NCBI RefSeq assembly: GCF_003432035.1
Contig: NZ_QOHO01000014.1
Span: forward strand, 1 to 51,905
From: Lacrimispora amygdalina
GTDB taxonomy: Bacteria; Bacillota; Clostridia; Lachnospirales; Lachnospiraceae
Reading direction: 5' to 3'
Length of the DNA: 51,905 bases
The position numbers and the translations under genes were made by a program. Every line of letters starts with the position of its first letter. The stretch's first letter is position 1. This document shows, piece after piece, positions 14,319 to 38,390 of the stretch. The notes beneath the pieces were generated by a model. That model was not told the DNA's origin. It searched no databases and saw nothing but the letters and a program-made list of their open reading frames with translations.

Positions 14319-14347
14319 TTGACCATTTAGGTGCAGTATGTTAATCT
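14319..14347 (+). promoter_or_regulatory. Rrf2 gene promoter with candidate operator
   Basis: TTGACC (14319-14324), 17 bases and TAATCT (14342-14347). ACCATTTAGGT (14322-14332) overlaps the -35 and spacer; it differs at one base from the complement of the palindrome core before cooS (14787-14799). This suggests that the Rrf2 protein binds both sites. Confidence 0.6.
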
Positions 14348-14366
14348 TATAACGTGGAGGTGCTAT

Positions 14367-14768: not shown

Positions 14769-14786
14769 TTTTTTTATTTTAATCTT

Positions 14787-14799
14787 TACCAAAATGGTA
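14787..14799 (+). promoter_or_regulatory. Candidate Rrf2 operator before cooS
   Basis: TACCAAAATGGTA is a perfect 5-3-5 palindrome. It overlaps the likely -10 (TATAGAAT) of cooS, 24 bases before the start codon. Its complement shares 10 of 11 core bases with a site in the regulator's own promoter. Confidence 0.55.
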
Positions 14800-14822
14800 T
14801 AGAATCAAAAGGAGGAAAAACA

Positions 14823-16706: not shown

Positions 16707-16717
16707 GAGGAGGGCAT

Positions 16718-20938: not shown

Positions 20939-21901
20939 ATGTTTAAAGTGCTGATCCCAAGAACTATCTCTCATACAGGTACAGACTACTTAAAGAAAAA
21001 AGGCTGCGAGCTTATATTATCTGCTCCGGCATCTGCAGATGACCCATTATTTGAACAGTGCCATGCCATACTTACAGGTCCCACCAGGAAGTTCCGGTAC
21101 GATAAAACTTTGCTGGACCGATGTAAAAATCTGAAAGTGATTTCCAGCTTCAGTGCAGGAGTAGACTATATCGATACCGCCTACGCAGAAGAACTTGGCA
21201 TCCAGGTGACCAATTCCGGAAATGCCAACTCCAATGCCGTAGCAGAACATACCATTTATTTCATCCTTGCCTGTGCAAAGAACCATCAGATTATGTCTGA
21301 TGCCGTGAAAAAAAGCGACTTTTCAATCCGAAAGGATGTTTTTAACATAGAGCTGTCCGGTCTTACCCTGGGACTCATTGGCTTTGGAAATATTGGAAAA
21401 CTGGTAGCAAAAAAGGCGGCTTTGGGATTGGATATGAAGGTCATCGTTTATGATCATCATTTAACTTGCGGCAATGCACCGTTTGGTGTTCTTCCGGTGT
21501 CTTCTCCGGAAGAAGTCTACCGAAATGCGGATTTTATTTCCCTTCATGTTCCTTATACTGAAAAAAACAGATACATGATAGCGAAAGAGCAGCTGGATAT
21601 GATGAAACCATCCGCTTTCTTAATCAATGTCTCCAGGGGAGGTTTGATCCAGGAGGAAGATTTAATCCAGGCGGTAAAAGACAAAAAAATAAAAGGAGCT
21701 GCTCTTGATGTGTTCGAAAAGGAGCCCCTTCCTGCTGACAGTGGACTGCTGCTATATGACAACATTGCTGTCTCTCCCCACTGCGCCGCCAATACAAGGG
21801 AAGCTCTTGACTGTATGGAGCTTTTTGCTGCTATGGATATCTGGAGAGTCTTAAACGGAGAAAGACCGGAATTTCCGGTCAATCATCCAATATTGTTCTA
21901 A
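20939..21901 (+). CDS. D-isomer-specific 2-hydroxyacid dehydrogenase
   Basis: A 320-residue NAD-dependent dehydrogenase of the phosphoglycerate/glyoxylate reductase-like family. The catalytic domain surrounds a Rossmann domain with GLIGFGNIGKLVAKK near residue 143. The catalytic arginine lies in NVSRGGLIQEEDL near 235, the glutamate in FEKEPLP near 262, and the general-acid histidine in SPHCAANT near 282. The substrate is not determined; it could be SerA-like, but no ACT domain or serC neighbour is seen. AAAGGA precedes the ATG. The stop codon overlaps by four bases the stop of the convergent HAD gene. Confidence 0.86.
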   Translation: MFKVLIPRTISHTGTDYLKKKGCELILSAPASADDPLFEQCHAILTGPTRKFRYDKTLLDRCKNLKVISSFSAGVDYIDTAYAEELGIQVTNSGNANSNAVAEHTIYFILACAKNHQIMSDAVKKSDFSIRKDVFNIELSGLTLGLIGFGNIGKLVAKKAALGLDMKVIVYDHHLTCGNAPFGVLPVSSPEEVYRNADFISLHVPYTEKNRYMIAKEQLDMMKPSAFLINVSRGGLIQEEDLIQAVKDKKIKGAALDVFEKEPLPADSGLLLYDNIAVSPHCAANTREALDCMELFAAMDIWRVLNGERPEFPVNHPILF

Positions 21902-22572
21902 GTGTAAATCTGAAGCTGATAAGGCTGGCTCTCCAGGTAGCTGATAACCTCCTTCAGATTTGGCAGTATCCTAACCGTTCTCTGTTTATCCGCATGATCT
22001 GGCTGTATGGCATCTGGTATCATCACTACAGAGCAGCCGGCCTGGAAGCCAGCCAGAACACCATTGGGAGAATCCTCTAAAACCAGGCATTCTTTTGGCT
22101 CTCTACCCATCTGTTTTAACGCTTTTATGTATATCTCCGGATCTGGTTTGCTCTTTGCTGCCATATCTCCATAAATGCACACATCAAAATAATCAGCAAC
22201 CCCTTCCATAGTAAGATATCTGCGGGCCGGCTCTTCAGGGGTAGAAGTCGCGACTGCCATCTGATATCCTTTTTCCTTCAAATATTCCAGAAGTTCTGTA
22301 AGCCCTGGCTTATGAGGTAAACCATGAATCCCAATGTATTGCTCCATGTATTCGATTCGAGATTTTCGTATTCTCATAAAGTCGAATTCCGGACCAAATT
22401 TCTTATAAAACAGATCTTGAACAAGGGCCTGATTTGCTCCGCGCATTGGATTTAAATCCTCTTGTTTTATCACATAGCCAAATTGTTTCCCTGCATACTC
22501 CCATGCTGTATCATACAGTTTTTCCGTATCAAACATCAATCCGTCCATATCAAAAATAACTGCTTTAATCAT
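21898..22572 (-). CDS. HAD-superfamily sugar-phosphate hydrolase or mutase
   Basis: A 224-residue HAD subfamily IA protein related to beta-phosphoglucomutase and sugar phosphatases. The nucleophile motif is VIFDMDGLMFDTE near residue 5, motif II is ATSTPE near 110, the lysine of motif III is in AKSKPDPEIYIKAL near 140, and motif IV is VLEDSPNGVLAG near 165. The helical cap lies between about 15 and 80. Last in the PTS operon, its start overlapping the SIS gene by eight bases, it probably dephosphorylates or isomerises a product of that pathway. The substrate is unknown. Confidence 0.83.
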   Translation of the reverse strand: MIKAVIFDMDGLMFDTEKLYDTAWEYAGKQFGYVIKQEDLNPMRGANQALVQDLFYKKFGPEFDFMRIRKSRIEYMEQYIGIHGLPHKPGLTELLEYLKEKGYQMAVATSTPEEPARRYLTMEGVADYFDVCIYGDMAAKSKPDPEIYIKALKQMGREPKECLVLEDSPNGVLAGFQAGCSVVMIPDAIQPDHADKQRTVRILPNLKEVISYLESQPYQLQIYT

Positions 22573-23698
22573 TCGTTTCTCCGTTATCTTCTGAATACTG
22601 ATCCCTGATGCCGTCTAATACTTTGCTTCCGATCTTCTTATGAAATTCCGGATCTTTTGGTATATCCGGATTTATGCCAAGATCCTGGGGTGCAAGACAG
22701 GCAATCACTTGCAGCGGAATAATATATTCCCACGGAGAAAATAAAGGATCCTCTGTAAATTCACAGATCAGATCTTTTGAAGATGCTTGAAGCATTCCCT
22801 CAGGGGAAGCAATCATGTAGTGATGAGGGGTCCATTCATTTAAAATGTTTACCAGCTTCTGAACCCTTGGTTTATAATCACCTTGGGAAGCCAGGTAAAA
22901 AATATGAGATGTTTCCGTAATGGAGTTATAAATACCATGAAAAAACTCTTCTATATCATAACCGGTTACTCCCTGACGAACTGTTTCCAGAATCTTTAAC
23001 GCACCTTCCAGTACATCGGCATACATACCATCATAACCTACTACAATAATTCTTTTTGCAGGAAGGAATTCTTCCTTTATCCGCCCATACCATTTAGTGG
23101 CCTCTGCTGTAATCATCTCCATATTTGCAATCACACGAAACATCCGTTGGAAATAATCCTGAGCAGCCGTTTCCGTTACAATCCCCTTCGCAATTGCCCA
23201 TTCTGTCAGCATCATCATGAGTGTTACAGTAGTGCCTGCATATCCTTTTGTTTTTGCACCGCATTTCTCATTTCCCACAAAAAGCCTTGTTGCAGTATCT
23301 GCATGTTCAAATATAAGAGCCGTAGGATTTTCCGACAATGCTGCTGTATAAAGTCCCCGTTTTGCGGCCGAATCCAAGCCTGAAACCGTGGAAAGGCTCT
23401 GCCCTCCCTGAGATATGCCGATTACCAGGGTGTTCTTGTTAAATATTTTTTCATTCCGTTCAAATTGTGTGGGATAACAATTAAACACCTTAATATTAAG
23501 TATTTCCTCAAGGTAAGCTTTGGCTGAAAGTCCAGCGTGATAACTGGTTCCAGAGCCGATCACATATATCTGATCAATCGTCTTGTCCTGGTAAAATGTT
23601 ACGAATTCTTTTGTTATCTCTTTTCTCCGCTTAATTATATCCATAAGCACCAGAGGAGTTTCACAAATATAATCATACATTTTTGATTTAAAATTCAT
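22565..23698 (-). CDS. SIS-domain sugar-phosphate isomerase or deglycase
   Basis: A 377-residue protein with two SIS domains, similar in plan to the isomerase half of GlmS and to FrlB/GfrE-type deglycases. The first SIS domain shows YVIGSGTSYHAGLSAK near residue 45 and GISQGGQSLSTVSGLD near 94; the second begins near 215 (KRIIVVGYDGMYADVLEGAL). No glutaminase domain is present, so it is not GlmS itself. With a mannose-family PTS it may deglycate a phosphorylated Amadori compound or act on an amino-sugar phosphate (inference). It overlaps IID by one base and the HAD gene by eight. Confidence 0.82.
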   Translation of the reverse strand: MNFKSKMYDYICETPLVLMDIIKRRKEITKEFVTFYQDKTIDQIYVIGSGTSYHAGLSAKAYLEEILNIKVFNCYPTQFERNEKIFNKNTLVIGISQGGQSLSTVSGLDSAAKRGLYTAALSENPTALIFEHADTATRLFVGNEKCGAKTKGYAGTTVTLMMMLTEWAIAKGIVTETAAQDYFQRMFRVIANMEMITAEATKWYGRIKEEFLPAKRIIVVGYDGMYADVLEGALKILETVRQGVTGYDIEEFFHGIYNSITETSHIFYLASQGDYKPRVQKLVNILNEWTPHHYMIASPEGMLQASSKDLICEFTEDPLFSPWEYIIPLQVIACLAPQDLGINPDIPKDPEFHKKIGSKVLDGIRDQYSEDNGETND

Positions 23699-24531
23699 TA
23701 TAATATTCCTAAAAACGCACAGATTATGCCGGCTGCAATTATACCGAACATGACTGTTACTGTTTTATACCCTTTCTTTAATAATCCGTAAATTCCAAAT
23801 GTAAGAAGAAGCGGAAGAATCTTTGGAAGAATCTGATCAAATACTCCTTGTAACTCAACCTTCGTCTCACCAATACTTAGAACCAGAGGGGTTGAAAATG
23901 CCACCATTGATGCAATCATTGCACCAACTACACAAAGCCCTATAATTTTGGCACAATTAGTAAGTATTTCGACCATTCCCGAAGTCTGTGCTGTTTCAAT
24001 AAAGTTAATTCCGCTCTTATATCCCAGTTTTAGTCCATAATATCTCACCAGATAATGAGGAATATTAAATATGAGCAAAAACAGAACAGCTCCCAGAAGG
24101 CTGCCTTTTGAGGCCAGACCACACCCCACTCCTGCTGCTATGATACGGAATGTGCCCCAGAAAAATGAATCTCCAATCCCCGCAATGGGTCCCATCAAAG
24201 CGGCTTTTAATGCTGTAATTGATTCAATATCAAAGCCTTCTTCTGATTTTTTATTCTGCTCTTCTAAGGCCACACAGGCACCGGTAATAAAGCTTACCAC
24301 TTGAGGCGTTGTATTAAAAAAGGAGAGATGACGCTTTAATGCTTCTTTTGCTTTTTCCTTCTCTGGATACAAACGCTTCAATACTGGTATCATAGAATAA
24401 CAAAATCCCACATTCTGCATGCGTTCATAGTTAAAGCATCCCTGTAATGGAAAAGAACGCCAGAAAGTCTTTCTCATGTCAGATTTAGTAATAAGGCTGT
24501 TTTCGGTATACGCTTCATCCATACGGCTCAT
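23698..24531 (-). CDS. PTS mannose-family transporter IID subunit
   Basis: A 277-residue membrane subunit of a mannose/fructose/sorbose-type phosphotransferase system. Family landmarks are FWRSFPLQGCFNYERMQNVG near residue 24, LMGPIAGIGDSFFWGTFR near 110 and a C-terminal membrane anchor region from about 195 to 277. IID and IIC form the sugar channel in the membrane. It overlaps IIC and the SIS gene by one base at each side, showing tight translational coupling. Confidence 0.93.
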   Translation of the reverse strand: MSRMDEAYTENSLITKSDMRKTFWRSFPLQGCFNYERMQNVGFCYSMIPVLKRLYPEKEKAKEALKRHLSFFNTTPQVVSFITGACVALEEQNKKSEEGFDIESITALKAALMGPIAGIGDSFFWGTFRIIAAGVGCGLASKGSLLGAVLFLLIFNIPHYLVRYYGLKLGYKSGINFIETAQTSGMVEILTNCAKIIGLCVVGAMIASMVAFSTPLVLSIGETKVELQGVFDQILPKILPLLLTFGIYGLLKKGYKTVTVMFGIIAAGIICAFLGIL

Positions 24532-25322
24532 TATAATTCACCTCCCAGATCATCAGACATAGACTGAGTCATTGCATATGCCATCTGTTCTTTTTTTCTT
24601 TGTGTCGCAGACTGATAGACCGTATAAGCAATAACCGCTCCCACAATTGCAACACCAACTGTGCTTATTCCAAGTAATGCGGTTAACACAAAGCCAACAA
24701 AAAGATAGGCTGCATTTGTTTTGTCAAAAATAAGCTGCATAAGAATTGCAATTCCTAATGCCGGCAGCATACCGCTTGCAATTTTTAAGCCATTTAATAT
24801 AAAAGCAGGAAGTGCGGCTACAAAAGCAGCAATGGTATTGGACCCCAGAATCACCCCAAGAAAAACCACCAGGAATGAGCTGATCCAAAACAGCCATGCT
24901 CCTGACCAGAATGCTTTTGAAACTCCCCTGTAATCCCCCTCCTCAGCTGCATTATCTGCCCAGTGAAGAAACGTGGCATTTATAGTTCTGTCTAATATTC
25001 CCACCGATTGAGCTAATGTTGCAATAGGAAGTGATAAAGCCACGGCTGCATCCATGTCAAGTCCCGACATAATAGCAAAAGCTGTAGCCAGAATTCCGCC
25101 CGATACAACATCCGGCGGTGTTGCCGCACCAATTCCCACAATTCCCATCATTACTAACTCAACTGCTGCCCCCATTACAATACCCGTATGTACATCCCCA
25201 AGCAGAAGCCCTACAATAGGACCGGTAACAATTGGGCGGTCAAACATATGCTGTCCGAACACCCGGCCATCCCAGATGGCAAAACCTGCAAGTATCCCCA
25301 GAAGCAACGCTTTAAATACCAT
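24531..25322 (-). CDS. PTS mannose-family transporter IIC subunit
   Basis: A 263-residue multi-spanning permease subunit. It has DRPIVTGPIVGLLLGDVHTG near residue 28, the family signature GAAVELVMMGIVGIGAATPPD near 51 in two parts, and several hydrophobic helices to the C terminus. The sugar specificity of the system is not evident. It lies 13 bases after IIB, with AGGAGG before the start. Confidence 0.93.
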   Translation of the reverse strand: MVFKALLLGILAGFAIWDGRVFGQHMFDRPIVTGPIVGLLLGDVHTGIVMGAAVELVMMGIVGIGAATPPDVVSGGILATAFAIMSGLDMDAAVALSLPIATLAQSVGILDRTINATFLHWADNAAEEGDYRGVSKAFWSGAWLFWISSFLVVFLGVILGSNTIAAFVAALPAFILNGLKIASGMLPALGIAILMQLIFDKTNAAYLFVGFVLTALLGISTVGVAIVGAVIAYTVYQSATQRKKEQMAYAMTQSMSDDLGGEL

Positions 25323-25335
25323 ATATTTCTCCTCC

Positions 25336-25824
25336 TTATTTTTTATAAAATTCTTTTATAATCTCACCATACTGCAGTTTTTTTTCCGTAGGTACAGCCT
25401 GCAGACAGATACCTTTCCCTAAAGCATGTATCTTCTCTATCACCTCCACATCCCCATTATCCAAGTATACCTGCCTTTCCACCATCTTCTTACCGGGTGA
25501 CTGTCTGATTCCACCCAGGCATACTTCCGAAACTGCATCACACTGTTCGATTAAATAAAGTGCATCCTGTACACTTGCAGTTACAACAAAAATCGAACGT
25601 CCTGCATGCTTTGGATTATTGATTACCGCAACAGCTCCTTCCAGTGTCTTAATAGATAAGGTAACTTGCGGCGGCTTAGCCATCTGGAACGCCATTTGCA
25701 TGAGTTTATCTGTGGCTGCCTTATCATTGGCAACCAATATCGTATCTGCACATAAAAACGATGTCCAGCTTACAGCAACCTGACCGTGGATCAAGCGGTC
25801 ATCCACCCGTAATAATTTAATCAT
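25336..25824 (-). CDS. PTS mannose-family IIB subunit
   Basis: A 162-residue cytoplasmic phosphocarrier. The N terminus MIKLLRVDDRLIHGQVAVSW contains the phosphorylated histidine (residue 13), followed by ILVANDKAATDKLMQMAFQ. IIB accepts phosphate from IIA and passes it to the incoming sugar. I place the start at the ATG at 25824, four bases after GGAGGG; an upstream TTG in frame overlaps that ribosome site. It is 39 bases after IIA. Confidence 0.93.
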   Translation of the reverse strand: MIKLLRVDDRLIHGQVAVSWTSFLCADTILVANDKAATDKLMQMAFQMAKPPQVTLSIKTLEGAVAVINNPKHAGRSIFVVTASVQDALYLIEQCDAVSEVCLGGIRQSPGKKMVERQVYLDNGDVEVIEKIHALGKGICLQAVPTEKKLQYGEIIKEFYKK

Positions 25825-25863
25825 TTTTCCCTCCAATGCCGTTTAAAAACGGTGCAAATTTCT

Positions 25864-26307
25864 TTACAGTTCTTCCGATTCCGCCGGCTGATTCATATTT
25901 GCATCCAAAAGATCATTAACCAGAGTCATGGTGTTTTTTGCATTCTCGACTGCACTTTTTAATGCCTGTCTGTCTGCCTGTTCCTCTCCGCACAAAGGAA
26001 GCATGGCTATTTCCAGCAGCAGTCCCAGATTAAGACCTGTAATCAGATAGATGCTCTTCTTAGTATCCATCAGTTCCATGGCTGCTCTGGTTGTACTGCC
26101 CCCTGCAATATCACTGATAATAACTGTGATTGTATCTCTGGAATAATTTTTCATCTTAGCTTCAATCATGCCAGTTATCTCAGGAATTGTTTCTTTTGCA
26201 CTGATTGAGACAAAGTCTATATAGTCTGTCTCTCCCATAACCAGTTTCACAGATGTGAGTATACCTTTGGCAAAGTCTCCGTGTGTTACCAGAATAATCT
26301 GTTTCAT
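25864..26307 (-). CDS. PTS mannose-family IIA subunit
   Basis: A 147-residue cytoplasmic EIIA of the mannose family. The N-terminal ILVTHGDFAKGI carries the phosphorylated histidine at residue 9, and SDIAGGSTTRAAM near 80 forms the conserved glycine-rich loop. It is the first gene of the minus-strand operon IIA-IIB-IIC-IID-SIS-HAD, transcribed away from the GntR gene across a 220-base AT-rich gap. Confidence 0.92.
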   Translation of the reverse strand: MKQIILVTHGDFAKGILTSVKLVMGETDYIDFVSISAKETIPEITGMIEAKMKNYSRDTITVIISDIAGGSTTRAAMELMDTKKSIYLITGLNLGLLLEIAMLPLCGEEQADRQALKSAVENAKNTMTLVNDLLDANMNQPAESEEL

Positions 26308-26527: not shown

Positions 26528-27238
26528 ATGAATCAAAAACCAAAGTATATACAAATAAGAGACTGTATTCTGAAAGATATAAAAAACCAGACCCTGCAGG
26601 CAGGGGATCAGATACCCACGGAGACCGAGCTTTGCGACCGCTTTCAAGTCAGCAGGATGACTGTAAATAAAGCGATCTCAGCCCTTACTTCGGAAGGCTA
26701 CATTCGGAGAATTGCAGGAAAAGGAAGCTTCGTAACCAGTTCACTTGTACAAAAACAATTTCATCACCAACCTATCAGCTTTACTGAAGATATGGAATCC
26801 ATTGGATTAAAGCCTGGAGCAAGGCTATTAGAATACAGAATTTACCGGGGAAGTGACATTCCGCCGGAAATAGCCCAGAAGCTTCAGGCCAGTCCGGAGG
26901 ATCTCATCCATTACTTTTCCAGAATACGGACCGGTAACGGAATGATCATCAGCATCAGTTATAATTACGTACCCTGCAATACAGTTCCCGCCATTGACAT
27001 TGCAAGCCTGGAGCATTCATTCTTTAAATATTTAAAAAAACTTGGTTTTGCCGATTTGCATACTGTTGACTTTTCTCTTTCGGCAACCCTCCCTACTCCG
27101 GAACAAAAAAAACTGCTGGAGATAGAAAATGAGGCACTTTTGAAAGTATCTCATTTAACCTGCAGCAGTCAGAATGATATTTTGGAATATATTGATACCT
27201 ATTATATCGGAAGCATGTATACATACCGGTTGGACTAA
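26528..27238 (+). CDS. GntR/HutC-family regulator (UTRA domain)
   Basis: A 236-residue regulator. The N-terminal winged helix (1-70) has the GntR signature LQAGDQIPTETELCDRF, then VSRMTVNKAISALTSEGYI. From about residue 80 a UTRA ligand-binding domain follows, which in relatives binds a phosphorylated sugar. It is divergent from the PTS operon and probably represses it until its sugar phosphate appears. GAAGGAG precedes the start. The stop overlaps by four bases the stop of the convergent GH13-like gene. Confidence 0.92.
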   Translation: MNQKPKYIQIRDCILKDIKNQTLQAGDQIPTETELCDRFQVSRMTVNKAISALTSEGYIRRIAGKGSFVTSSLVQKQFHHQPISFTEDMESIGLKPGARLLEYRIYRGSDIPPEIAQKLQASPEDLIHYFSRIRTGNGMIISISYNYVPCNTVPAIDIASLEHSFFKYLKKLGFADLHTVDFSLSATLPTPEQKKLLEIENEALLKVSHLTCSSQNDILEYIDTYYIGSMYTYRLD

Positions 27239-29079
27239 TCAGCTTTCCCCATAAATACCACAATTGTCCTGGGAGGAATGGGAAAGCTCTTTCCTTCCAC
27301 CACCGGTTCGTTTCCTTCCTCATATCTGCCGTTTTCTTCCATTTTATCGGTATGAAACACCACATGCCACTGATGGTTTTTAGGAAGATTGGGAAGGTCG
27401 AACGTATGGGGTTCCCAATGCATGTTATAAGCTACATAAAAGTGATTGTCTGCCGTACCATCTGGTTTTCTGGCATAATCTCCCCAATAAAGAATTCCCA
27501 GCTGACGCCGGAAATTCTCATATTCCGGATACCATGGTTTTACCCCGTGATAAGAAACATCAGGAAACCCGCAGGCGAGATAATCCATGTTCTTTGCTTC
27601 TTCTCTCCTGCGAAACACCGGATGTGCCTTTCTAAAAGCTATGACTGCTTTCACAAATTCAAAAAGATCTCTGTTTGTTTTTAAAAGGTTCCAGTTTAAC
27701 CAGGAAATGTCATTATCCTGACAATAAGCATTGTTATTACCTGACTGGGTATTGCCAAACTCATCTCCTGCCATAATAAGAGGCGTTCCCTGGCTTAAAA
27801 GCAGCAACAGGAAGGCATTGCGCAGCTGCTTTCTTCTAAGCTCCACCACTTTTTTCTTTCTCGTAGGACCTTCTGTTCCGCAGTTCCATGAGTAATTATA
27901 GAGATTACCATCCTGGTTAAATTCACCATTGGCTTCATTATGCTTGGTATCGTAGGATACCATATCCATCATGGTAAACCCATTGGTATTTGCCATAAAA
28001 TGAATCATTCCCCGGTCAGAGGGATTGTTTCTTGTCTGAAAAACCAGATTCTTCATCTGCTCCTCGTCGCCTTTGAGTACTCTTCTCATATCCATCTGAA
28101 AGCTGTCATTATATTCCGCCAGATATTTCGGTCCTTTCTGAGGGATATCTCCCCAGGAATCGGCCCAGAGCTTTAATCCTTTTAAATAGGGATCACGTCC
28201 GGTCAAGTCAAGAGGCGGATATCCCACCAGATGAATTCCGTCCAGATGAAATTCTTCTGCCCAGAACCGGACCGCATCAAGAACGAAAGAAGGAGACTCC
28301 TTTCCTGTGAAATAGAGTTCTGTAATAAGTTCCATTCCCTCTTTATGAAGTGCCTTCACAAGGCTTTTTAATTCTAAGACAGGATCTTTCTGATCACCCG
28401 ATGCATAGGAAGCCTTAGGCGCAAAATAATATCCGGATGTATATCCCCAATAATTTAACTTTCCCGTAGGTTTATCCACACCATATGGATTGCCATACAC
28501 AGTCTCAGGAAGAATCACCTCCTGAAACTCATAGACCGGCATCAATTCAACTGATGTAATTCCCAGTTCTTTTAGATAAGGGATTTTATCCTCTATCGCC
28601 CGAAAGGTTCCTTTATACGTGGTCCCGGAAGAAGAATGCATGGTAAATCCCCGAACATGAATCCGGTAGATTACAGAATTCTCATATGGAATCAGAGGAC
28701 GCTTCTCCTCCCCCCATTCAAATGAGTCAAATCTAACCGGACTCTTTGGTATAACAGCAGTTTCTTCTAAATCTCCCCAGTTATCCTTATGTGTAAAAGC
28801 TCTCCCATACGGATCAGAGAACCGTTTTCCATCAATCTCATAGCAATAGGAGATCCCGGTAAAGTCATCCCCCAGGATGGTCACAGAAAAAACCTCTCCC
28901 CTCTTCTCCTTCTCCGGAAAGAGAAAGGTACAGACAGGCTCCTTATCATTTTCAAGGAAAAATAGAAGCCGTAATTCCACTCCCTGTGCAGCAACGGAAA
29001 AATGAATCCCTCCCGCAGTCTTTGTCATTCCCATAGGATAATATCCTGGTTCTCTCCCGGCGATCCTGTACTGTTTCAT
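27235..29079 (-). CDS. GH13 debranching-enzyme homologue lacking catalytic residues
   Basis: A 614-residue protein with the GlgX/isoamylase plan: CBM48-like N domain (about 20-100), barrel (about 140-480) and beta domain. Conserved structure includes YDTKHNEANGEFNQDG, SWNCGTEGPT, AGDEFGNTQSGNNNAYCQ and ISWLNW. The catalytic motifs are changed. Region I, normally DVVxNH, reads ELYFTG (254-259). Region II, GFRxD, reads GIHLV, with Val285 at the nucleophile position. The AEPWD region with the acid Glu is not found, and the HD of region IV reads TN (365-366). I therefore infer a non-hydrolytic protein, perhaps glycan-binding. The frame is intact with a GAGGAG ribosome site. Confidence 0.82.
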   Translation of the reverse strand: MKQYRIAGREPGYYPMGMTKTAGGIHFSVAAQGVELRLLFFLENDKEPVCTFLFPEKEKRGEVFSVTILGDDFTGISYCYEIDGKRFSDPYGRAFTHKDNWGDLEETAVIPKSPVRFDSFEWGEEKRPLIPYENSVIYRIHVRGFTMHSSSGTTYKGTFRAIEDKIPYLKELGITSVELMPVYEFQEVILPETVYGNPYGVDKPTGKLNYWGYTSGYYFAPKASYASGDQKDPVLELKSLVKALHKEGMELITELYFTGKESPSFVLDAVRFWAEEFHLDGIHLVGYPPLDLTGRDPYLKGLKLWADSWGDIPQKGPKYLAEYNDSFQMDMRRVLKGDEEQMKNLVFQTRNNPSDRGMIHFMANTNGFTMMDMVSYDTKHNEANGEFNQDGNLYNYSWNCGTEGPTRKKKVVELRRKQLRNAFLLLLLSQGTPLIMAGDEFGNTQSGNNNAYCQDNDISWLNWNLLKTNRDLFEFVKAVIAFRKAHPVFRRREEAKNMDYLACGFPDVSYHGVKPWYPEYENFRRQLGILYWGDYARKPDGTADNHFYVAYNMHWEPHTFDLPNLPKNHQWHVVFHTDKMEENGRYEEGNEPVVEGKSFPIPPRTIVVFMGKAD

Positions 29080-29105
29080 TCCTTTTCTCCTCTGTAACAG
29101 TCCTG

Positions 29106-30920
29106 TTACTGGTTCTCAATCTGCTCTGCCAGATCATTTAAATACATCCAGCGTTCCATCTTCTCCTCTAAAAGCCCTTCTTTTTCTGCCTTTTCTTTCA
29201 TCAGCTGGTTCAGTCTGCCATAGTCACTGGCGGCTTCTTCTATCTTTCCATCAAGCGTCTCAATGGCTTCTTCCAAAGCAGCAATGTCATCTTCAATCGT
29301 TTCCCATTCCCGCTGTTCTTTATAGGAAAACCGAAGCTTCCGCTCTGGTTTTGGCCTTTCCTTTCCCTTCTTCTCTCCTGTGTCTTCCCTTTTGTCAGTT
29401 CCGGATACTTCTCCGGGAAGCCCGTCCGGATATTTTGCAGCAAAAGCTGCCTGATAATCCGTAAAGCCGCCCTCGTATTGCGTTACCTTTCCCTGTCCTT
29501 CAAAAGCAAAAATTCTGCGCACAACCCGGTCAAGGAAATAGCGGTCATGGGATACCGTTATGACAATGCCGGGAAAGCTGTCTAAATAATCCTCAAGGAT
29601 GGTAAGTGTCTGAATATCCAGATCGTTGGTCGGTTCATCGAGCAGCAGCACATTCGGCGCTTCCATCAGGATTCGCAGCAGATACAGCCTCCGTTTCTCT
29701 CCTCCGGAAAGCTTTTCAACTGTCGTATACTGAACACTGGAGGGAAATAAGAACCGCTCCAGCATCTGTGAGGCGCTGACACTGCCATCTTTTGTTTTCA
29801 CATATTCAGCTGCGCTCCGGATATAATCGATCACCTTTAAGCTGCCGTCCATATCTTCGCTCTCCTGGGAGAAATAGCCCATCTTTACGGTCTGTCCCAC
29901 CGTTAAAGTTCCCTCATCGGGCTGAAGCCACCCGGCAATAATTTTCATAAGCGTGGATTTACCGGACCCGTTTGGACCTATAATTCCTATGCGGTCATTT
30001 TTTAAGAAAATATAGTTAAAGTCTTTCATCAGAACTTTATCGCCAAAAGCCTTTGTGATGTCTTTAAGCTCTACGGTCGTGCGCCCGAGACGGCTCTCAA
30101 TGGAATCCAGTTCCACGTTTTTATCAAACTCCGGTGCCTTCTGGTCACGGAGTGTTTCATACCGCTCTATATGAGCCTTCTGCTTGGTAGAACGTGCTCT
30201 GGCGCCTCTTTGCATCCACTGCAGCTCGATACGGAGGATGGACTGGCGTTTCCGCTCTGTGGCCTGCTCCATATCCAGCCGGTCTGCCTTCAGCTTTAAA
30301 TAACCCTCATAATTCTCCTGATAGCTGTAAAGCTTACCCTTATCAAGCTCCACAATCCGGTTTGTCACGCTGTCTAAAAAATACCGGTCATGGGTTACCA
30401 TCAAAAGAGCACCTTTAAAACGGCGAAGATAATCCTCCAGCCAGTCCGCCATACTGCTGTCCAAGTGGTTGGTCGGCTCATCAAGAACCAGTAAGTCCGC
30501 AGTGGAAAGAAGAACGCTCACAAGAGCAACTCTCTTTCTCTGTCCGCCGGATAAGGTATCAACTCTGGTATCAAATTCAGTAAATCCCAGTCTGGTGAGC
30601 ATGTTCTTTGCCTGACTTTCCAAATCCCACACATGCTCGTGTCCTTCATTCTCCCGGATAATGCTTTCCAGAATGGTTTCTCCTGCCTCAAATCTGGGAT
30701 TCTGGGACAGGAAGCGGATATCTAAGTTTCTTCCCTTTGCCACACTTCCCCCGTCCGGTTCTTCAAGCCCTGCCACAATGCGCAGCAGCGTGGATTTTCC
30801 AGTACCGTTAATACCGATCAGACCGATTTTCTCACCTTCATTTATGCTGAAACTGGTGTCATCAAAAAGCAGCCGTTCCGTATATGATTTTGTTAAATGC
30901 TCTATTGTTAATAAATTCAT
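29106..30920 (-). CDS. ABC-F ATPase, Uup type
   Basis: A 604-residue cytoplasmic protein with two ATP-binding domains and no membrane segments. NBD1 has GINGTGKST, LSGGQRKRVAL, LLVLDEPTNHLD and THDRYF; NBD2 has GPNGSGKST, LSGGEKRRLYL, LLLDEPTNDLD and SHDRYF. An interdomain linker of about 80 residues lies between, and a charged coiled-coil tail from about 500 to 604 (EDDIAALEEAIETLDGKIEE) is typical of Uup. Such proteins act on ribosomes or on DNA branch stability; clostridial ones are not usually resistance factors. All ATPase motifs are intact. It sits between exonuclease III and the GH13-like gene with short gaps. Confidence 0.88.
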   Translation of the reverse strand: MNLLTIEHLTKSYTERLLFDDTSFSINEGEKIGLIGINGTGKSTLLRIVAGLEEPDGGSVAKGRNLDIRFLSQNPRFEAGETILESIIRENEGHEHVWDLESQAKNMLTRLGFTEFDTRVDTLSGGQRKRVALVSVLLSTADLLVLDEPTNHLDSSMADWLEDYLRRFKGALLMVTHDRYFLDSVTNRIVELDKGKLYSYQENYEGYLKLKADRLDMEQATERKRQSILRIELQWMQRGARARSTKQKAHIERYETLRDQKAPEFDKNVELDSIESRLGRTTVELKDITKAFGDKVLMKDFNYIFLKNDRIGIIGPNGSGKSTLMKIIAGWLQPDEGTLTVGQTVKMGYFSQESEDMDGSLKVIDYIRSAAEYVKTKDGSVSASQMLERFLFPSSVQYTTVEKLSGGEKRRLYLLRILMEAPNVLLLDEPTNDLDIQTLTILEDYLDSFPGIVITVSHDRYFLDRVVRRIFAFEGQGKVTQYEGGFTDYQAAFAAKYPDGLPGEVSGTDKREDTGEKKGKERPKPERKLRFSYKEQREWETIEDDIAALEEAIETLDGKIEEAASDYGRLNQLMKEKAEKEGLLEEKMERWMYLNDLAEQIENQ

Positions 30921-30952: not shown

Positions 30953-31708
30953 TTATTTAATTACAAGCTCTACCGGACAGTGATCAGAGCCTGTCACCTG
31001 GGTATGAATGTCTGCACTTACCAGCCTGTCCTTCAGACTTTCTGATACACAGAAATAATCAATACGCCACCCTGCATTCTTCTCTCTTGCCCGGAATCGG
31101 TAGGACCACCAGGAGTAAATCTCCTCCTGATCGGGATAAAAATACCGGTAGGTATCCACAAATCCACTCTCCACAAGAACTGTAAACTTTTCTCTCTCCT
31201 CATCGGTAAACCCGGCATTTTTCCGGTTGGATTTGGGATTTTTCAAATCAATCTCTTTGTGGGCTACATTTAAGTCGCCGCAGAAAATAACAGGTTTTTT
31301 CTCTTCCAGCCCTTTTAAATAAGCGCGGAATGCATCTTCCCAGGTCATACGGTATGGAAGGCGTGCCAGTTCATTCTGGGAATTGGGAGTATAGCAGGTC
31401 ACTACGTAATATTCCGGAAACTCAGCAGTAATGATCCTGCCCTCCTTATCATGTTCTTCTATTTCCATACCATAAGTAACCGATAACGGCTTTTCTTTGG
31501 TAAACAGGGCAGTACCTGAGTATCCTTTCTTTTGTGCGTAATTCCAATATTGATAATAGCCTGGGAGAGAAAGGTCAATCTGGCCTTCCTGCAGCTTGCT
31601 TTCCTGAATACAGAACACATCTGCATCCACCTCTTGAAAATAGTCCAGAAAACCTTTCTCCACACAGGCACGAAGTCCATTCACATTCCATGAAATCAAT
31701 TTTTTCAT
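30953..31708 (-). CDS. xth: Exodeoxyribonuclease III / AP endonuclease
   Basis: A 251-residue EEP-fold nuclease of base-excision repair. It shows [16 protein letters not shown] at the N terminus, the catalytic glutamate in CIQESKLQ near residue 35, [12 protein letters not shown] near 150, and the C-terminal [10 protein letters not shown] with the catalytic histidine. It cuts DNA 5' to abasic sites and trims 3' ends. I start at the ATG at 31708, eight bases after GGAGG; an in-frame GTG three codons earlier is too close to that site. Probably the first gene of a transcript with the ABC-F and GH13-like genes. Confidence 0.94.
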
Positions 31709-31765
31709 CGCATTCACCTCCGTTAAAAAGATAGTGTTAGTATACCATTTAAAACAGCATTCGAA

Positions 31766-31803: not shown

Positions 31804-32121
31804 TTATAACTGTCTATCCTGCCATTTTTTCCGTTCCACAAGTCTTCCCATAAAAAATGCGATGATCCCCACACCGATTCCTGTCTGAAGACAGAACAGA
31901 AGACTTTCTATCTCACCGGGAAGCTCTCCTCCTAAGGCAGCTTCCATGACGGGAGTAAACCATGGTTCATACTCCGTACCGCGGATTTCTGTGATCATCT
32001 GGCTTCCCGCATCATCAGAGCCTCCAAACTCCGCCCCTTTTACTGCAAACAGGGGAATAACTGCAATCAGACAAACAAGAACCAGCAGCACTGCGATTGT
32101 CTGTTTCTTTTTCCTGCTCAT
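31804..32121 (-). CDS. cbiN: Cobalt ECF transporter subunit CbiN
   Basis: A 105-residue membrane protein with an N-terminal helix (about 9-28, TIAVLLVLVCLIAVIPLFAV) and a C-terminal one (about 75-95). Between them is an extracytoplasmic loop with AEFGGSDDAGSQMI and EPWFTPV, which matches CbiN. CbiN assists CbiM in loading Co2+. It starts one base after the cbiM stop. Confidence 0.9.
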   Translation of the reverse strand: MSRKKKQTIAVLLVLVCLIAVIPLFAVKGAEFGGSDDAGSQMITEIRGTEYEPWFTPVMEAALGGELPGEIESLLFCLQTGIGVGIIAFFMGRLVERKKWQDRQL

Positions 32122-32122
32122 A

Positions 32123-32872
32123 TTATTTTACCTCCCTTGTAAATCCAATGGCTTTCAGCTCCGGAAGAGCATAAGTCTCAAGAGTCATAACAATGACTGT
32201 TGTGAGAATCCCCTCAATCACCGCAAGAGGCAGCTGAGTCGGTGCAAATACTCCAAGGAATTTAACAGCAGAAGCGCCCACGCCTCCCATTTCAGAAGGA
32301 TAGGCTAACGCAAGCTGAAAACTTGTAATACAGTATGTAAATAAGTCGCCCAATGTCGCAGCCAGAAAAACAGATGCCATTTTATTCACTTTTAACATTT
32401 TGCAAAGCTTATATATTCCAAAGGACAAGAAAGGACCTGCAATTGCCATGGAAAAAGTATTGGCTCCCAATGTGGTAAGACCTCCATGGGCAAGCAGCAC
32501 CGCCTGAAAGATCAACACGATAATGCCCAGTATACTGACTGCCGAAGGTCCGAACAGAATCGCTCCCAGACCAGTTCCCGTCATATGAGAACAGCTTCCG
32601 GTTACCGACGGAATTTTTAATGAGGAAAGCACAAATACAAATGCTCCAGACATGGCAAGCACTGTAATCGCCTTCCTGTTCTCCCGAAGCGTCTTCTGAA
32701 TGGAAAAGAAGCCGGCTATGAGAAAGGGCACACAAACCGCCCCCCAGGCAATACAATACCCCACTGGTAAATAGCCCTCCATAATGTGCATGGCATAGGC
32801 ACTGGGAACGATTCCAAATGTCAATGCAAATGCGGCTGCAAGTTTCATGATACCTTTTTCTTTCTTACTCAT
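32123..32872 (-). CDS. cbiM: Cobalt ECF transporter substrate subunit CbiM
   Basis: A 249-residue membrane protein. After an N-terminal hydrophobic leader ending in SAYA comes [17 protein letters not shown], the conserved CbiM start, whose Met-His residues bind Co2+ in the mature protein. The rest is a bundle of helices including [17 protein letters not shown] near residue 93. I use the second ATG (32872), seven bases after GGAG, rather than the first (32878), which almost abuts it. Expression is governed by the cobalamin riboswitch upstream. Confidence 0.93.
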
Positions 32873-32897
32873 CTTCATTCTCCTTCCAATAAAATAA

Positions 32898-32937
32898 GCA
32901 CCTCACATCCGATGGTTCCCACACATCAGACAGGTGC
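32898..32937 (-). terminator. Riboswitch expression-platform terminator
   Basis: On the minus strand GCACCT pairs with AGGTGC, with an inner CTGATG/CATCGG stem, followed by TTATTTTATT. It lies between the cobalamin aptamer and cbiM and would stop transcription when the ligand is bound. Confidence 0.72.
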
Positions 32938-33009
32938 CCTTTGGGTAAATCTTTGCATAGCAAAAAGACTTCCCGGCACCGGTCATCGCTCGTAACCGGA
33001 TACTCCAAA

Positions 33010-33172
33010 CAAAAAGGCAGGTCTTCTGACTCATGCATCAAACACAGCTGCTCCCTCTTCCCGGTTTCCCAGTGACTAATGGAGCCCTGCTCTGCATATA
33101 CAGCGGCGGGACCGTAAGGGACTTTCACCCTTTTCCCTATTATCCTGCGGAGAATTTCACAGGCACCTTTTC
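33010..33172 (-). promoter_or_regulatory. Cobalamin riboswitch aptamer
   Basis: On the minus strand the region reads AGGTGCC...GGGTGAAAGTCCCTTACGG...AGTCACTGGGAAACCGGGAAG...GAGTCAGAAGACCTGCC, the ordered hallmarks of a B12 riboswitch, including the B12-box-like AGTCACTGG (usual form GCCACTG). Promoter upstream and terminator downstream complete a transcriptional switch for cbiMN. Confidence 0.93.
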
Positions 33173-33187
33173 AGATAATACGCTTGT

Positions 33188-33216
33188 ATTGTAACTGTAA
33201 TACCAATTTCTGTCAA
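33188..33216 (-). promoter_or_regulatory. Promoter of the riboswitch-cbiMN unit
   Basis: On the minus strand TTGACA (33211-33216), 17 bases and TACAAT (33188-33193), just upstream of the aptamer and after the cbiO stop. Confidence 0.82.
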
Positions 33217-33247
33217 TAAAAAGACGTTGAGCTTCTTAAACCTCACA

Positions 33248-34078
33248 CTATATGTTAAGGAGCCGATTTAACTCTTGTGTATCCTTAAAGCGCGGACTCT
33301 CTTCCGGCAAGATCCGGCTTCTCACCAGACTGTCATAAACCTCCATCAAAACAGGCTTCCTTAAATTCCCCTGATTCAGGACAGAATCGGACGCCAGAAT
33401 ATCCGCCACCGGGCCATCCGCGATAATTGTTCCACCGGCAAATACCACTGCCCGGTCCGCCCACTTATAAGCAAAATCCACATCATGGGTTGAAATCAGA
33501 AGAGTTTTCCCCATTCTGGTCATTTCATCAAGAACTTGTGTGAGCATTTCCACATTAACCGGATCTAACGATGCGGTTGGTTCATCAAATATAATCACCT
33601 CCGGCTCCATTGCAATGATGTCCGCTATGCTGACCCGTTTCTTCTCTCCTCCGCTTAAGTAGTGGGGAGGACGATCCTGAAACATCATTAAATTCATGGA
33701 CTTTAATGCCATTTCCACCCGCTGCTTCACTTCATCTTTGGAAAGTCTTAAATTCATTGGCCCAAAGGATACCTCTGCTGAAACAGTAGATGCAATGATC
33801 TGATTATCTGCGTCCTGAAACACGATTCCCACTTCCTTACGAAGTTCATTTAAGTCTTTTTTCCCTATCTCCTTCCCCTTATACCGGATGGTTCCTGTAT
33901 CAGGCATTAAAACGCCGTTGAGGTTTAAAAAGCAGGTGGATTTCCCCGCTCCATTGGAACCAAGAACTGCGATCTTCTCTCCCTTTTTCACAGACAGGGA
34001 TACATCATGAAGTGCCTTAGTTCCCGGACCATAGGAATACGAAAGGTTTTCTGCCTGCAAAAGTACTTCTTCCATCAT
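33248..34078 (-). CDS. cbiO: Cobalt ECF transporter ATPase CbiO
   Basis: A 276-residue ABC ATPase. Walker A is GSNGAGKST near residue 40, the Q loop is VFQDADNQI near 85, the signature is LSGGEKKRVSIA near 140, Walker B is VIIFDEPTASLDP near 160 and the switch histidine is in STHDVDF near 195. I place the start at the first of two ATGs at 34078 and 34075, five bases after AGGAGG; a longer reading from 34126 overlaps cbiQ and has no ribosome site. It follows cbiQ by ten bases, upstream of the riboswitch. Confidence 0.92.
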   Translation of the reverse strand: MMEEVLLQAENLSYSYGPGTKALHDVSLSVKKGEKIAVLGSNGAGKSTCFLNLNGVLMPDTGTIRYKGKEIGKKDLNELRKEVGIVFQDADNQIIASTVSAEVSFGPMNLRLSKDEVKQRVEMALKSMNLMMFQDRPPHYLSGGEKKRVSIADIIAMEPEVIIFDEPTASLDPVNVEMLTQVLDEMTRMGKTLLISTHDVDFAYKWADRAVVFAGGTIIADGPVADILASDSVLNQGNLRKPVLMEVYDSLVRSRILPEESPRFKDTQELNRLLNI

Positions 34079-34088
34079 CTGTTCCTCC

Positions 34089-34865
34089 TCATTTTCGCAC
34101 CAGCCATAAAAGCAGAAGAAGTGCAATATAACCGGCGGCCGCTGCTGCCTCTTTTGCCTTCACCGGCTTCTTCTCTTCCAGAAATGCAAGTTCTCCCTGA
34201 TAGCACCGGGCAGTCATGGCATCATAATACATCCCTGCCTTCTTTAACGAAACGATAAAGAGATTCGCTCCGATCCCTCCAAAGGACCTGCATGACGTAA
34301 GGAAATTATGATATCCCAGCCTGGACTCTGCCGCCTGCTTCATACTGTTCTGTACATCCATCATAACAAAGATAAACCGGTATATGAGATTCATCAGCTC
34401 TGATATCAGCTTTGGCACATGTAATTTTCCAAGTAAATTAATGATCTCACTTGCCGGTGTGGAAAGTACAAGCATATACATGGCACTTACCGATGCCATA
34501 GCCTTTAAAATCAGCCGTGCGGAAAGAACCGCTCCTTCCTCTGACAGACAGAGATAAAATCCGGGAAGCGATACATAAAAGCGCCCTGCCGGTACAGGAG
34601 ATACCCCCACCGCAATAGCAGCAGTTCCCAGAATCAGAAAGACTACTGGAATTTTTAAAAGAGCCAGATACTTTTTAATGGAAAGCCCTCCCAAAAAAAT
34701 GGTTACAGCTCCCATGGACAGGAATACAGAAACAGATATAAAAACATCTCCGGTTCCAATACAAAGTAACAGCGTTGTTATTGCAACTGCTGCTTTTAAA
34801 CCTGGATTTACTCCTTTCATGCGTGATTCATAAGCACAGGTATCTATCGTACTAATCATTCTCAC
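34089..34865 (-). CDS. cbiQ: Cobalt ECF transporter transmembrane subunit CbiQ
   Basis: A 258-residue membrane protein coupling CbiO to CbiM. It has five or so hydrophobic segments and cytoplasmic coupling helices with the family-type arginine motifs: the ESRLGYHN stretch near residue 180 and TARCYQG near 220. The opening STIDTCAYESRMKGVNPGLK is typical of CbiQ. It has its own promoter with a short leader and no riboswitch. It is the first gene of the cbiQO pair. Confidence 0.9.
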   Translation of the reverse strand: MRMISTIDTCAYESRMKGVNPGLKAAVAITTLLLCIGTGDVFISVSVFLSMGAVTIFLGGLSIKKYLALLKIPVVFLILGTAAIAVGVSPVPAGRFYVSLPGFYLCLSEEGAVLSARLILKAMASVSAMYMLVLSTPASEIINLLGKLHVPKLISELMNLIYRFIFVMMDVQNSMKQAAESRLGYHNFLTSCRSFGGIGANLFIVSLKKAGMYYDAMTARCYQGELAFLEEKKPVKAKEAAAAAGYIALLLLLWLVRK

Positions 34866-36562: not shown

Positions 36563-38203
36563 TTACTGATTCTCGTTTACTTGTTCTTCCGTCAGAGTAA
36601 ATACCTGTCTCTTACGAGCCATCTCATCATTTTCCAGGTACTCATCGTAAGTTGTAATCTTATCGATCAACTGTCCGCCTACAATCTCCATAATGCGGTT
36701 AGCCGTTGTCTGTACGATCTGATGGTCACGGGAGGAGAACAGAAGCGCTCCCTGAAACTTAACCAATCCATTGTTTAATGCTGTAATGGATTCCATATCA
36801 AGGTGATCGGTCGGCTCATCTAAAAGAAGCACGTTAGCTCCGGAAATCATCAGCTTTGAAAGCATACAGCGCACTTTCTCTCCACCGGATAATACCCGCA
36901 CTTTCTTTACGCCGTCTTCTCCGGCAAACAGCATACGTCCAAGGAATCCGCGGACATAGGTTGCATCTTTTTCAGGAGAATACTGGGTCAGCCAGTCCAC
37001 GATGGTGTCATCGTTATCAAACTCCGCGCTATTATCCTTAGGGAAATAGCTCTGGGTAGTTGTAAGGCCCCATTTATAATCGCCTTCATCCGGCTCCATT
37101 TCTCCGGAAAGGATCTTGAACAGAACCGTTTTAGCAAGCTCGTTGGGTCCTACAAAAGCCACCTTATCCTCTCTGGTTAAGGTAAAGGAGATATGATCGA
37201 GTATCTTCACACCATCAATGGTCTTGGTTAAATTATTTACGGTAAGAACCTCATTACCGATCTCACGGGCCGGACGGAAGTCGATATAGGGGTATTTACG
37301 GCTGGAAGGTTTGATATCATCCAGTTCGATTTTTTCTAAAGCACGTTTTCTGGAAGTAGCCTGCTTGGATTTGGAAGCATTGGCTGAGAAGCGCTGAATA
37401 AAATCCTGCAGTTCTTTGATCTTTTCTTCTTTCTTCCTGTTGGCTTCCTTCATCTGCTTTACCATAAGCTGGCTTGACTCATACCAGAAATCATAGTTGC
37501 CGGCATAAAGCTGAATTTTGCTGTAATCAATATCCGCAATATGAGTGCAGACCTTATTTAAAAAGTAACGGTCATGGGAAACCACAATTACGGTATTTTC
37601 AAAATTAATTAAGAATTCTTCCAGCCATGCAATAGCGTCCAGATCCAAATGGTTGGTCGGCTCATCTAAAAGAAGAATATCGGGGTTTCCAAAGAGTGCC
37701 TGTGCAAGAAGCACTTTCACCTTCTGGGCTCCGGTTAAATCCTTCATCAGTTTATAGTGTAAGTCAGTCTCAATTCCAAGACCGTTTAGTAAGTTAGCAG
37801 CATCGGATTCCGCTTCCCAGCCATTCATGGTAGCGAATTCTCCCTCTAGATCTGCAGCCTTAATGCCGTCCTCATCTGTGAAGTCTTCCTTCGCGTAGAT
37901 GGCATCCTTTTCCTTCATAATTTCATATAATCTGACATTTCCCATGATAACAGTATCAAGGACCTGATACTCATCATATTTAAAATGGTCCTGTTTTAAG
38001 AAAGAAAGTCTCTGGCCCGGTGTGATCACAATATCACCGCCGGTAGGCTCCAGTTCCCCGGAAAGAATTTTTAAGAACGTGGATTTTCCGGCACCATTGG
38101 CACCGATTAAGCCATAACAGTTGCCTTCCGTAAACTTAATATTTACATCTTCAAACAATGCTTTTTTTCCAAGTCTTAATGTTACGTTATGTGCACTAAT
38201 CAT
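36563..38203 (-). CDS. ABC-F ATPase with one degenerate ATP site
   Basis: A 546-residue ABC-F protein of the YbiT/YkpA-like type with two ATPase domains. NBD1 has a normal Walker A (GANGAGKS, 34-41), Walker B (LLLDEPTNHLD) and switch (SHDRYF), but its signature reads LTGAQ (156-160). NBD2 has a normal signature LSGGE (438-442) and LLLDEPTDHLD, but its Walker A is GPNELAKT (352-359) and its switch histidine is Arg492 (SSRDHQ). All three changes fall in the same composite nucleotide site. The linker (about 250-300) is basic and helical, as expected for ribosome contact. I start at 38203, after AAAGGG; the longer frame from 38245 has no ribosome site. Confidence 0.87.
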   Translation of the reverse strand: MISAHNVTLRLGKKALFEDVNIKFTEGNCYGLIGANGAGKSTFLKILSGELEPTGGDIVITPGQRLSFLKQDHFKYDEYQVLDTVIMGNVRLYEIMKEKDAIYAKEDFTDEDGIKAADLEGEFATMNGWEAESDAANLLNGLGIETDLHYKLMKDLTGAQKVKVLLAQALFGNPDILLLDEPTNHLDLDAIAWLEEFLINFENTVIVVSHDRYFLNKVCTHIADIDYSKIQLYAGNYDFWYESSQLMVKQMKEANRKKEEKIKELQDFIQRFSANASKSKQATSRKRALEKIELDDIKPSSRKYPYIDFRPAREIGNEVLTVNNLTKTIDGVKILDHISFTLTREDKVAFVGPNELAKTVLFKILSGEMEPDEGDYKWGLTTTQSYFPKDNSAEFDNDDTIVDWLTQYSPEKDATYVRGFLGRMLFAGEDGVKKVRVLSGGEKVRCMLSKLMISGANVLLLDEPTDHLDMESITALNNGLVKFQGALLFSSRDHQIVQTTANRIMEIVGGQLIDKITTYDEYLENDEMARKRQVFTLTEEQVNENQ

Positions 38204-38390
38204 CTTAATTCCCTTTCTGAAATCTGGTTTTATTCCATATGGCAAGCTCTGCTTCTGGTTTCAGCCGAAACCATCAAAATAGGGGTCGTTTGGCCCCTTA
38301 TCTGTCATCTCTCTTATTGTACATGAAAATCCCGAATTTGCAAGCCTTTTATCAAAAAAGCCCTGCCTATCCGGGATTTATGCCTGGTTT

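Follow-up and report, generated by a model that had tools for sequence, protein, structure and literature searches.

A Widespread GlgX-like Pseudoenzyme Family of Lachnospiraceae, Exemplified by a Protein of Lacrimispora amygdalina

The present analysis concerns a 51,905-nucleotide stretch of DNA from Lacrimispora amygdalina (assembly GCF_003432035.1, contig NZ_QOHO01000014.1, positions 1 to 51,905), hereafter the window, and within it the gene of a 614-residue GlgX-like protein, P0001. The protein belongs to a real, widespread bacterial pseudoenzyme family, in which the GH13 catalytic site is lost and the reading frame is maintained by purifying selection. With a probability that we put at roughly 0.55, this inactive protein of the GlgX/isoamylase fold owes its retention to persisting α-glucan binding by the rest of the cleft and by the border lobe, as a comparison of retained residues suggests. 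Members of the family are called dead in what follows, as opposed to canonical GlgX.

Loss of the Catalytic Site

An active GlgX carries the catalytic Asp, Glu, and Asp of regions II, III, and IV, a set that P0001 does not have. Region I reads ELYFTG (E254 to G259) instead of DVVFNH, Val285 occupies the nucleophile position of region II (GIHLV versus GFRFD), and the His-Asp pair of region IV is replaced by T365-N366, all of which agrees with the initial annotation of this DNA. The same annotation stated that there is no acid region, which proved incorrect, as a counterpart of region III exists (KLWADSWG) with Asp307 in the place of the acid Glu, a column that holds many different residues among the relatives. 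Its claim of a change at four motifs holds in that all four are altered, but the change exceeds substitutions, since two active-site loops are gone as well: compared to canonical GlgX, the stretch from region I to region II is shorter by 44 residues in P0001, and that from region II to region III by 15.

The shortening is constant throughout the family. Regions I and II are 74–75 residues apart in all 21 canonical GlgX proteins examined versus 29–31 in all 69 dead ones, and regions II and III are 36 residues apart in the 21 canonical versus 21–22 in the 69 dead proteins. No intermediate spacing of regions I and II was found among the sequences read, which fall into two sharp classes. Two protein searches scored 7999 sequences each, and all 240 relatives listed (the best 120 in each) lack the nucleophile and have a region I–II spacing of 30, so that chance is excluded. 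An orthologue search of the kind that the initial annotation proposed gives the same loss at the nucleophile and the same shortened spacing in all the relatives listed.

Similar results were obtained in a survey of Lachnospiraceae, where the dead protein occurs in 123 of 150 sampled genera. A genome was counted when its match to alignment A3 reached at least 400 bits; G408, with a weaker match, was not counted, and three of the 123 rows (L217, L218, and L223) are cut by contig ends. A3 holds 62 of 63 dead loci (L098 was left out), and L010, L011, and L097, which repeat the gene of the window, were omitted. The region I–II spacing is 29–30 in all 119 measurable rows (4 of the 123 are not measurable). 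None of the 123 sequences retains the nucleophile, the acid, and the transition-state Asp together, and 84 retain none of the three. The nucleophile Asp is absent in 122, the sole exception, L185, having lost both other acids. In the canonical proteins (n = 21), the same three columns are conserved in 21/21, 21/21, and 20/20 of the sequences with a letter there.

A shifted alignment that would restore the catalytic triad, which the initial annotation had raised as a possible objection, was considered and rejected in view of the constant shortening and the lack of newly conserved residues. The loop itself is gone, and a single glycine is the only residue conserved specifically in the dead family.

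P0001 scores 335.8 bits against the TIGR02100 equivalog, below the curated cut-off of 640.9, and six other dead members score 263–352 bits, compared to 715 and 654 for two canonical controls.

Distribution, Selection, and Descent

Within the genus, the dead protein is present in 24 of 25 genomes, with frames open at 607–616 codons, and the closest named relative among the matches listed is from Lacrimispora sp. (88% identity). A sample of the phylum (299 genomes), searched at E 1e-60, a setting at which divergent members could be missed, returned three matches: the genome of the window itself, one genome of the same family, which encodes a dead protein as well as a canonical one, and one genome of another family, whose protein is canonical.

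The ratio of nonsynonymous to synonymous substitution rates (dN/dS) has a median of 0.090 and a maximum of 0.126 among ten close genomes. In a second group, where 31 of 55 pairs were usable, the corresponding values are 0.101 and 0.184. For a stretch of the neighboring ABC-F gene, the values in the same two groups are 0.033 and 0.065; P0001 is constrained, though less than the ABC-F ATPase. This check, which had been suggested with the initial annotation, makes purifying selection clear at a dN/dS of about 0.09. A recent pseudogene, against which that annotation had already argued, is rejected by this value together with the spread of the protein through the genus and the family.

The phylogenetic tree was built from 36 of the 63 dead loci (L073 was omitted), with two GlgB rows as the outgroup. 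The canonical rows separate with full support. The free quick tree splits the dead rows in two, requiring two changes for the dead state, and places the outgroup among them. A tree with a single dead clade has a likelihood higher by 29.7 and is not rejected (p value of the approximately unbiased test, p-AU, 0.815). A single origin of the dead clade is therefore allowed but not proven.

Retained Residues and Predicted Structure

The 202 columns that are invariant in canonical GlgX were examined for at least 90% retention in the 123 dead sequences. In regions I to IV, 4 of 86 such columns are kept, as compared to 32 of 41 in the border lobe, taken from region IV to GNNNxYCQDN (Fisher p 1e-17, a guide only, as the boundaries were drawn after seeing the profile and the columns are not independent). 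The motifs KHNEANGE, SWNCGTEGPT, and GDEFGNTQSGNNNAYCQ are all found in P0001, as initially reported.

In GlgX of S. venezuelae, acarbose is contacted by Trp222, Tyr224, His271, Asp342, Glu378, Trp380, and His449, with outer contacts from Arg212, Glu470, Asn534, and Tyr536 (PMC9530166). The hydrolytic contacts are gone in the dead family. The residues W222, Y224, E470, N534, and Y536 correspond to W211, Y213, E386, N450, and Y452 of P0001, which are kept in 123, 110 (Phe in 13 more), 120, 121, and 112 (Trp in 9 more) of the 123 sequences, respectively. In maize ISA1, four missense changes in the border lobe abolish detectable activity, with differing effects on starch; Trp578 is a glucan contact of another binding site, SBS2 (PMC12510319). 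Counting residues along the Arabidopsis ISA1 chain, without the maize sequence, places Trp578 on W398 of P0001, which is Trp in 107 of the 123. The maize residues W578, N628, and N561 land on W, N, and N at one offset; for R504, which misses by one position, no correspondence is claimed.

Within the columns of P0001, Gly528 is the only residue that is conserved in at least 85% of the dead family and differs from the canonical majority. This argues that an old property has been retained, the simplest candidate being binding, and against the formation of a new active site. The acidic residues E386, D439, E440, and D455, common to canonical GlgX, are kept in 120–122 of the 123 sequences.

The predicted fold of P0001 is isoamylase-like, with a CBM48-like N-terminal domain, a (β/α)8 barrel, and a C-terminal β domain, which places the protein in that structural family. 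With the GlgX/isoamylase enzymes (GH13_11; E. coli GlgX 2WSK, S. venezuelae GlgX 7U39, and TreX 2VNC) it shares the predicted fold, the domain order, the border-lobe motifs, and the sugar contacts of NYWGY and GNNNxYC; it differs from them in having no nucleophile and no intact triad and in the 44 + 15 missing loop residues. A library of viral folds yielded a single distant GH13 protein; the other matches were poor, and most were to other glycosidases.

Glycogen Pathway and Co-occurrence

The genome of the window encodes GlgA, two GlgB proteins, and relatives of cyclomaltodextrinase and maltodextrin glucosidase that score below their cut-offs. A separate canonical debranching enzyme, for which the initial annotation had recommended a search, was not found there: no canonical GlgX or type I pullulanase is over the cut-off, and there is no GDE_C match. 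The GlgB, cyclomaltodextrinase, and maltodextrin glucosidase assignments come from 8 classified frames, one of them without result, among 14 α-amylase matches of this genome; the two frames on C88 are not among the 8.

Among the 123 carriers of the dead protein, 40 have a canonical GlgX, 31 a pullulanase, and 25 GDE_C. The canonical GlgX is somewhat commoner in carriers (40/123 versus 3/27 in non-carriers, Fisher p 0.033, uncorrected). For pullulanase, for GDE_C, and for the presence of at least one of the three debranching families, there is no clear association (Fisher p 1.0, 0.17, and 0.09, respectively). Genomes were taken as canonical (43 of 150) when the TIGR02100 match was at least 377 bits, thus by score and not by catalytic residues; 24 of them exceed the strict curated cut-off, and G301, G336, and G340 were counted as canonical only. 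The other 83 carriers have no canonical GlgX match, so that dependence on a canonical GlgX partner cannot be general. It can also be mentioned that 59 of the 123 carriers have none of the three families, despite glgA being nearly universal (149 of 150 family genomes).

The Gene and Its Neighborhood

The coordinates of the features are collected in Table 1. The frame of P0001 is complete, as first described. It lies on the minus strand, where it is open between its ATG and its stop codon; the plus-strand reading contains many stops. The good ribosome site claimed earlier is also present: the arrangement of AGGAG, 7 nucleotides, and ATG spans 29077–29091, and the window holds 8 such sites versus 2.5 expected.

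Table 1. Features of the P0001 gene and of the genes upstream of it (positions in the window)
Feature	Positions	Strand	Basis
GlgX-like protein P0001, catalytic site missing, 614 residues	27235..29079	minus	translation and family/structure searches
Border lobe and β8 loop, residues 367–456 (KHNEANGE, SWNCG, GDEFG, GNNNAYCQDN)	27712..27981	minus	conservation
Region IV, Thr365-Asn366 replacing His-Asp	27982..27987	minus	
Region III counterpart, KLWADSWG (303–310), Asp307 at the acid Glu position, variable in the family	28150..28173	minus	
Region II, GIHLVG (281–286), Val285 at the nucleophile Asp position; canonical GFRFD	28222..28239	minus	
Site (about residues 260–264) without 44 residues of the canonical active-site loop	28288..28302	minus	
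Region I, ELYFTG (254–259) replacing DVVFNH	28303..28320	minus	
NYWGY (209–213), with the equivalents of Trp222 and Tyr224, which contact acarbose in S. venezuelae GlgX	28441..28455	minus	
Ribosome binding site AGGAG, 7 nucleotides ahead of the P0001 ATG	29087..29091	minus	
ABC-F ATPase gene, 26 nucleotides upstream of the P0001 gene	29106..30920	minus	
Exonuclease III (ExoA)-like gene, 32 nucleotides upstream of the ABC-F gene	30953..31717	minus	

The ABC-F gene is probably co-transcribed with that of P0001, and the first ABC-F gene, ExoA, and the dead GlgX probably form one operon. Recurring neighbors at the 63 dead loci include DUF5662 (30), ABC-F (27), a UvrD-like helicase (27), and a glutamyl/glutaminyl-type tRNA synthetase (23); further recurring families include PepT, MiaB, MutS, chorismate synthase, a class I W/Y-type tRNA synthetase, and TraX. 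One representative was tested for each of the 24 recurring clusters (by Pfam, and 4 also by NCBIfam), neighbors that do not recur lying outside the test. A glycogen operon context is rejected for the recurring neighbors, none of the 24 representatives being a glycogen gene, and the surroundings suggest vertical descent amid housekeeping genes.

The cluster with DUF5662 as its tested member occurs at 30 of the 63 dead loci (among them L019, from 7792 onwards, and L044, 7770–8327) versus 0 of 21 canonical ones; it lies directly downstream in 25 of 58 loci, and a functional link is possible. The window contains two distinct ABC-F-like genes less than 10 kb apart (29106–30920 and 36563–38245, minus strand). 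A GntR/UTRA regulator (Pfam) is found at 26528–27238 on the plus strand, next to genes at 21898–26307 (minus) that, judged by their translations, encode a mannose-type phosphotransferase system (EIIA, EIIB, EIIC, and EIID-like), a SIS-domain sugar isomerase or deglycase, and a HAD phosphatase. This cluster resembles an operon for the utilization of glycated amino acids. Likewise judged by the translations, positions 14331–18399 (plus) seem to encode an Rrf2-type regulator, the catalytic subunit of carbon monoxide dehydrogenase, a CooF-like ferredoxin, and a pyridine nucleotide-disulfide oxidoreductase, and 31804–34865 (minus) cobalt/nickel energy-coupling factor transporter genes of the CbiM, CbiN, CbiQ, and CbiO kind.

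Function of the Family

P0001 has lost the catalytic residues and is under purifying selection, and the retained pseudoenzyme proposed in the initial annotation is well supported by the erasure of the catalytic half across the clade, by the dN/dS of about 0.09, and by the spread. The roles suggested there, glycogen binding or the regulation of another enzyme, are plausible, with some residue-level support. In the mechanism that we favor, hydrolysis would be lost along with the catalytic residues and loops, and the remaining cleft and border lobe would hold α-glucan chains. The protein would then act by occupancy: seated on glycogen, it may protect branch points, attract glycogen enzymes or hold them in place, or influence the form of the polymer. 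More tentatively, the family may represent a noncatalytic glycogen organizer that evolved independently in a whole bacterial family, the cutting half being excised in one ancestral event and the glucan-holding lobe frozen, so as to shape, cap, or recruit onto glycogen, mostly without a GlgX partner. If true, it would be a bacterial counterpart of the noncatalytic function of isoamylase in maize.

A number of observations weigh against glucan binding as the retained property. The lobe residues may be kept purely for folding, given that there is almost no dead-specific conservation, and the lobe count suffers from the post hoc boundaries mentioned above; retention is intermediate elsewhere, with 22 of 60 canonical-invariant columns kept in the N-terminal and 7 of 15 in the C-terminal part. 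The counterpart of Trp380 is Trp in just 39 of the 123 sequences, Arg212 was left unmapped, and in the W398 column 16 of the 123 rows lack Trp, including one with a gap. The pLDDT of the model is below 50 at residues 366–368, 377–388, 392–406, 438–459, and 497–523, mostly in the lobe, and Pfam calls no CBM48 in P0001. Part of the catalytic set also persists, as the acid Glu is kept in 16 and the region IV Asp in 26 of the 123 survey sequences, and in 55 and 16, respectively, of the 240 listed relatives. Finally, no glycogen gene stands among the representatives of the recurring neighbors, and the co-occurrence with glgA is uninformative because glgA is nearly universal.

Other explanations were considered. 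The absence of glg genes among the recurring neighbors (ABC-F, ExoA-like, tRNA synthetase, UvrD-like, DUF5662, TraX, MutS, MiaB, and PepT), together with the position of the DUF5662 cluster next downstream, would fit a role outside glycogen, for example with the adjoining translation or DNA repair genes, in which the fold serves as a protein-binding platform. However, the neighbors vary by subclade, as housekeeping synteny would, and known sugar contacts are among the retained positions, which makes such a role rather doubtful. A rebuilt active site, that is, a new activity in the same fold with residues outside the GH13 triad, might account for a genome that has glgA and two GlgB yet no canonical debranching match, for the 59 carriers without a match to the three debranching families, and for the shared acids E386, D439, E440, and D455. 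This is improbable, as only Gly528 is newly conserved and the pocket-forming loops are gone; in addition, the cyclomaltodextrinase and maltodextrin glucosidase relatives might clip the branches of short dextrins. A decaying pseudogene or a sequencing artifact would explain the loss of every catalytic motif, but is virtually irreconcilable with the low dN/dS, with frames that are open in 24 of 25 genomes of the genus, and with the presence of the protein in 123 of 150 genomes of the family.

The remaining alternative is a subunit that, like plant ISA2, works only as a hetero-oligomer with the catalytic GlgX of the same cell. It has a precedent in plants (PMC12510319, PMC12892837), and the commoner occurrence of canonical GlgX in carriers points in the same direction. 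On the other hand, 83 of the 123 carriers have no canonical GlgX match, and the genome of the window has none over the cut-off. In addition, the extra N-terminal β-sandwich of ISA2 (PMC12510319) is absent from the 614 residues of P0001, the alignment with Arabidopsis ISA2 beginning at residue 1 of the model and residue 120 of the chain. We consider this alternative, and with it an obligate pairing of the ISA1/ISA2 style, unlikely.

The P0001 family and ISA2, the noncatalytic partner of ISA1, have in common the isoamylase fold, a lineage-wide catalytic loss, and retention by selection. Arabidopsis ISA2 (9xvi_C) seems to keep most of the region I–II loop, unlike the P0001 family; residues 259–265 of the query span 458–498 of 9xvi_C, which is approximate, as these are the ends of two local alignments. 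ISA2 is also described as having an extra N-terminal domain and no SBS2 sequence, and as acting with ISA1 (PMC12510319). In the bacterial family, by contrast, 107 of the 123 sequences have the presumed Trp of SBS2, and 83 of the 123 carriers are without a canonical GlgX match. By analogy, the bacterial family may work most like plant ISA2, yet it is differently built.

The plant proteins BAM4 and BAM9 belong to GH14, and GlgD has a nucleotidyltransferase fold. BAM4 and BAM9 thus differ from P0001 by family and by organism, and resemble it in being inactive members of a glucanase family, with binding to glucan or to a partner and an influence on the breakdown of starch (PMC12892837). GlgD differs by fold and by pathway step, and resembles it as the regulatory subunit of ADP-glucose pyrophosphorylase, which accompanies a catalytic subunit in bacterial glycogen metabolism (PMC10395257).

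Implications

Among open-licence papers, judged mostly by their titles and the openings of their abstracts, we found none that describes a noncatalytic GlgX family in bacteria. Among the matches listed, family members carry database names such as alpha-amylase, isoamylase, and glycogen operon protein. In Butyrivibrio hungatei, glgX2 (648 residues, no CBM48) is listed as a glycogen debranching enzyme (PMC5716241), and under another locus tag glgX2 is upregulated in pectin monoculture (log2 3.27; the printed false discovery rate of 3.69E+06 looks mistyped; PMC6344614). The genome G142 of the same family as the window encodes two proteins, one dead (648 residues) and one canonical (726 residues), which match the sizes of glgX2 and glgX1 in the paper, and judged by size alone Butyrivibrio glgX2 probably belongs to the dead family. 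Two glgX homologues are reported for Blautia obeum (PMC10395257), one of which, by copy number, is a possible member counted as a debranching enzyme. Such bacteria may accordingly be credited with more capacity for glycogen degradation than they have.

Plants retain a noncatalytic isoamylase for reasons that are described as not understood (PMC12510319). A bacterial clade that has met the same fate by another route, and mostly without a recognizable catalytic GlgX, makes the role of a noncatalytic isoamylase fold directly testable.
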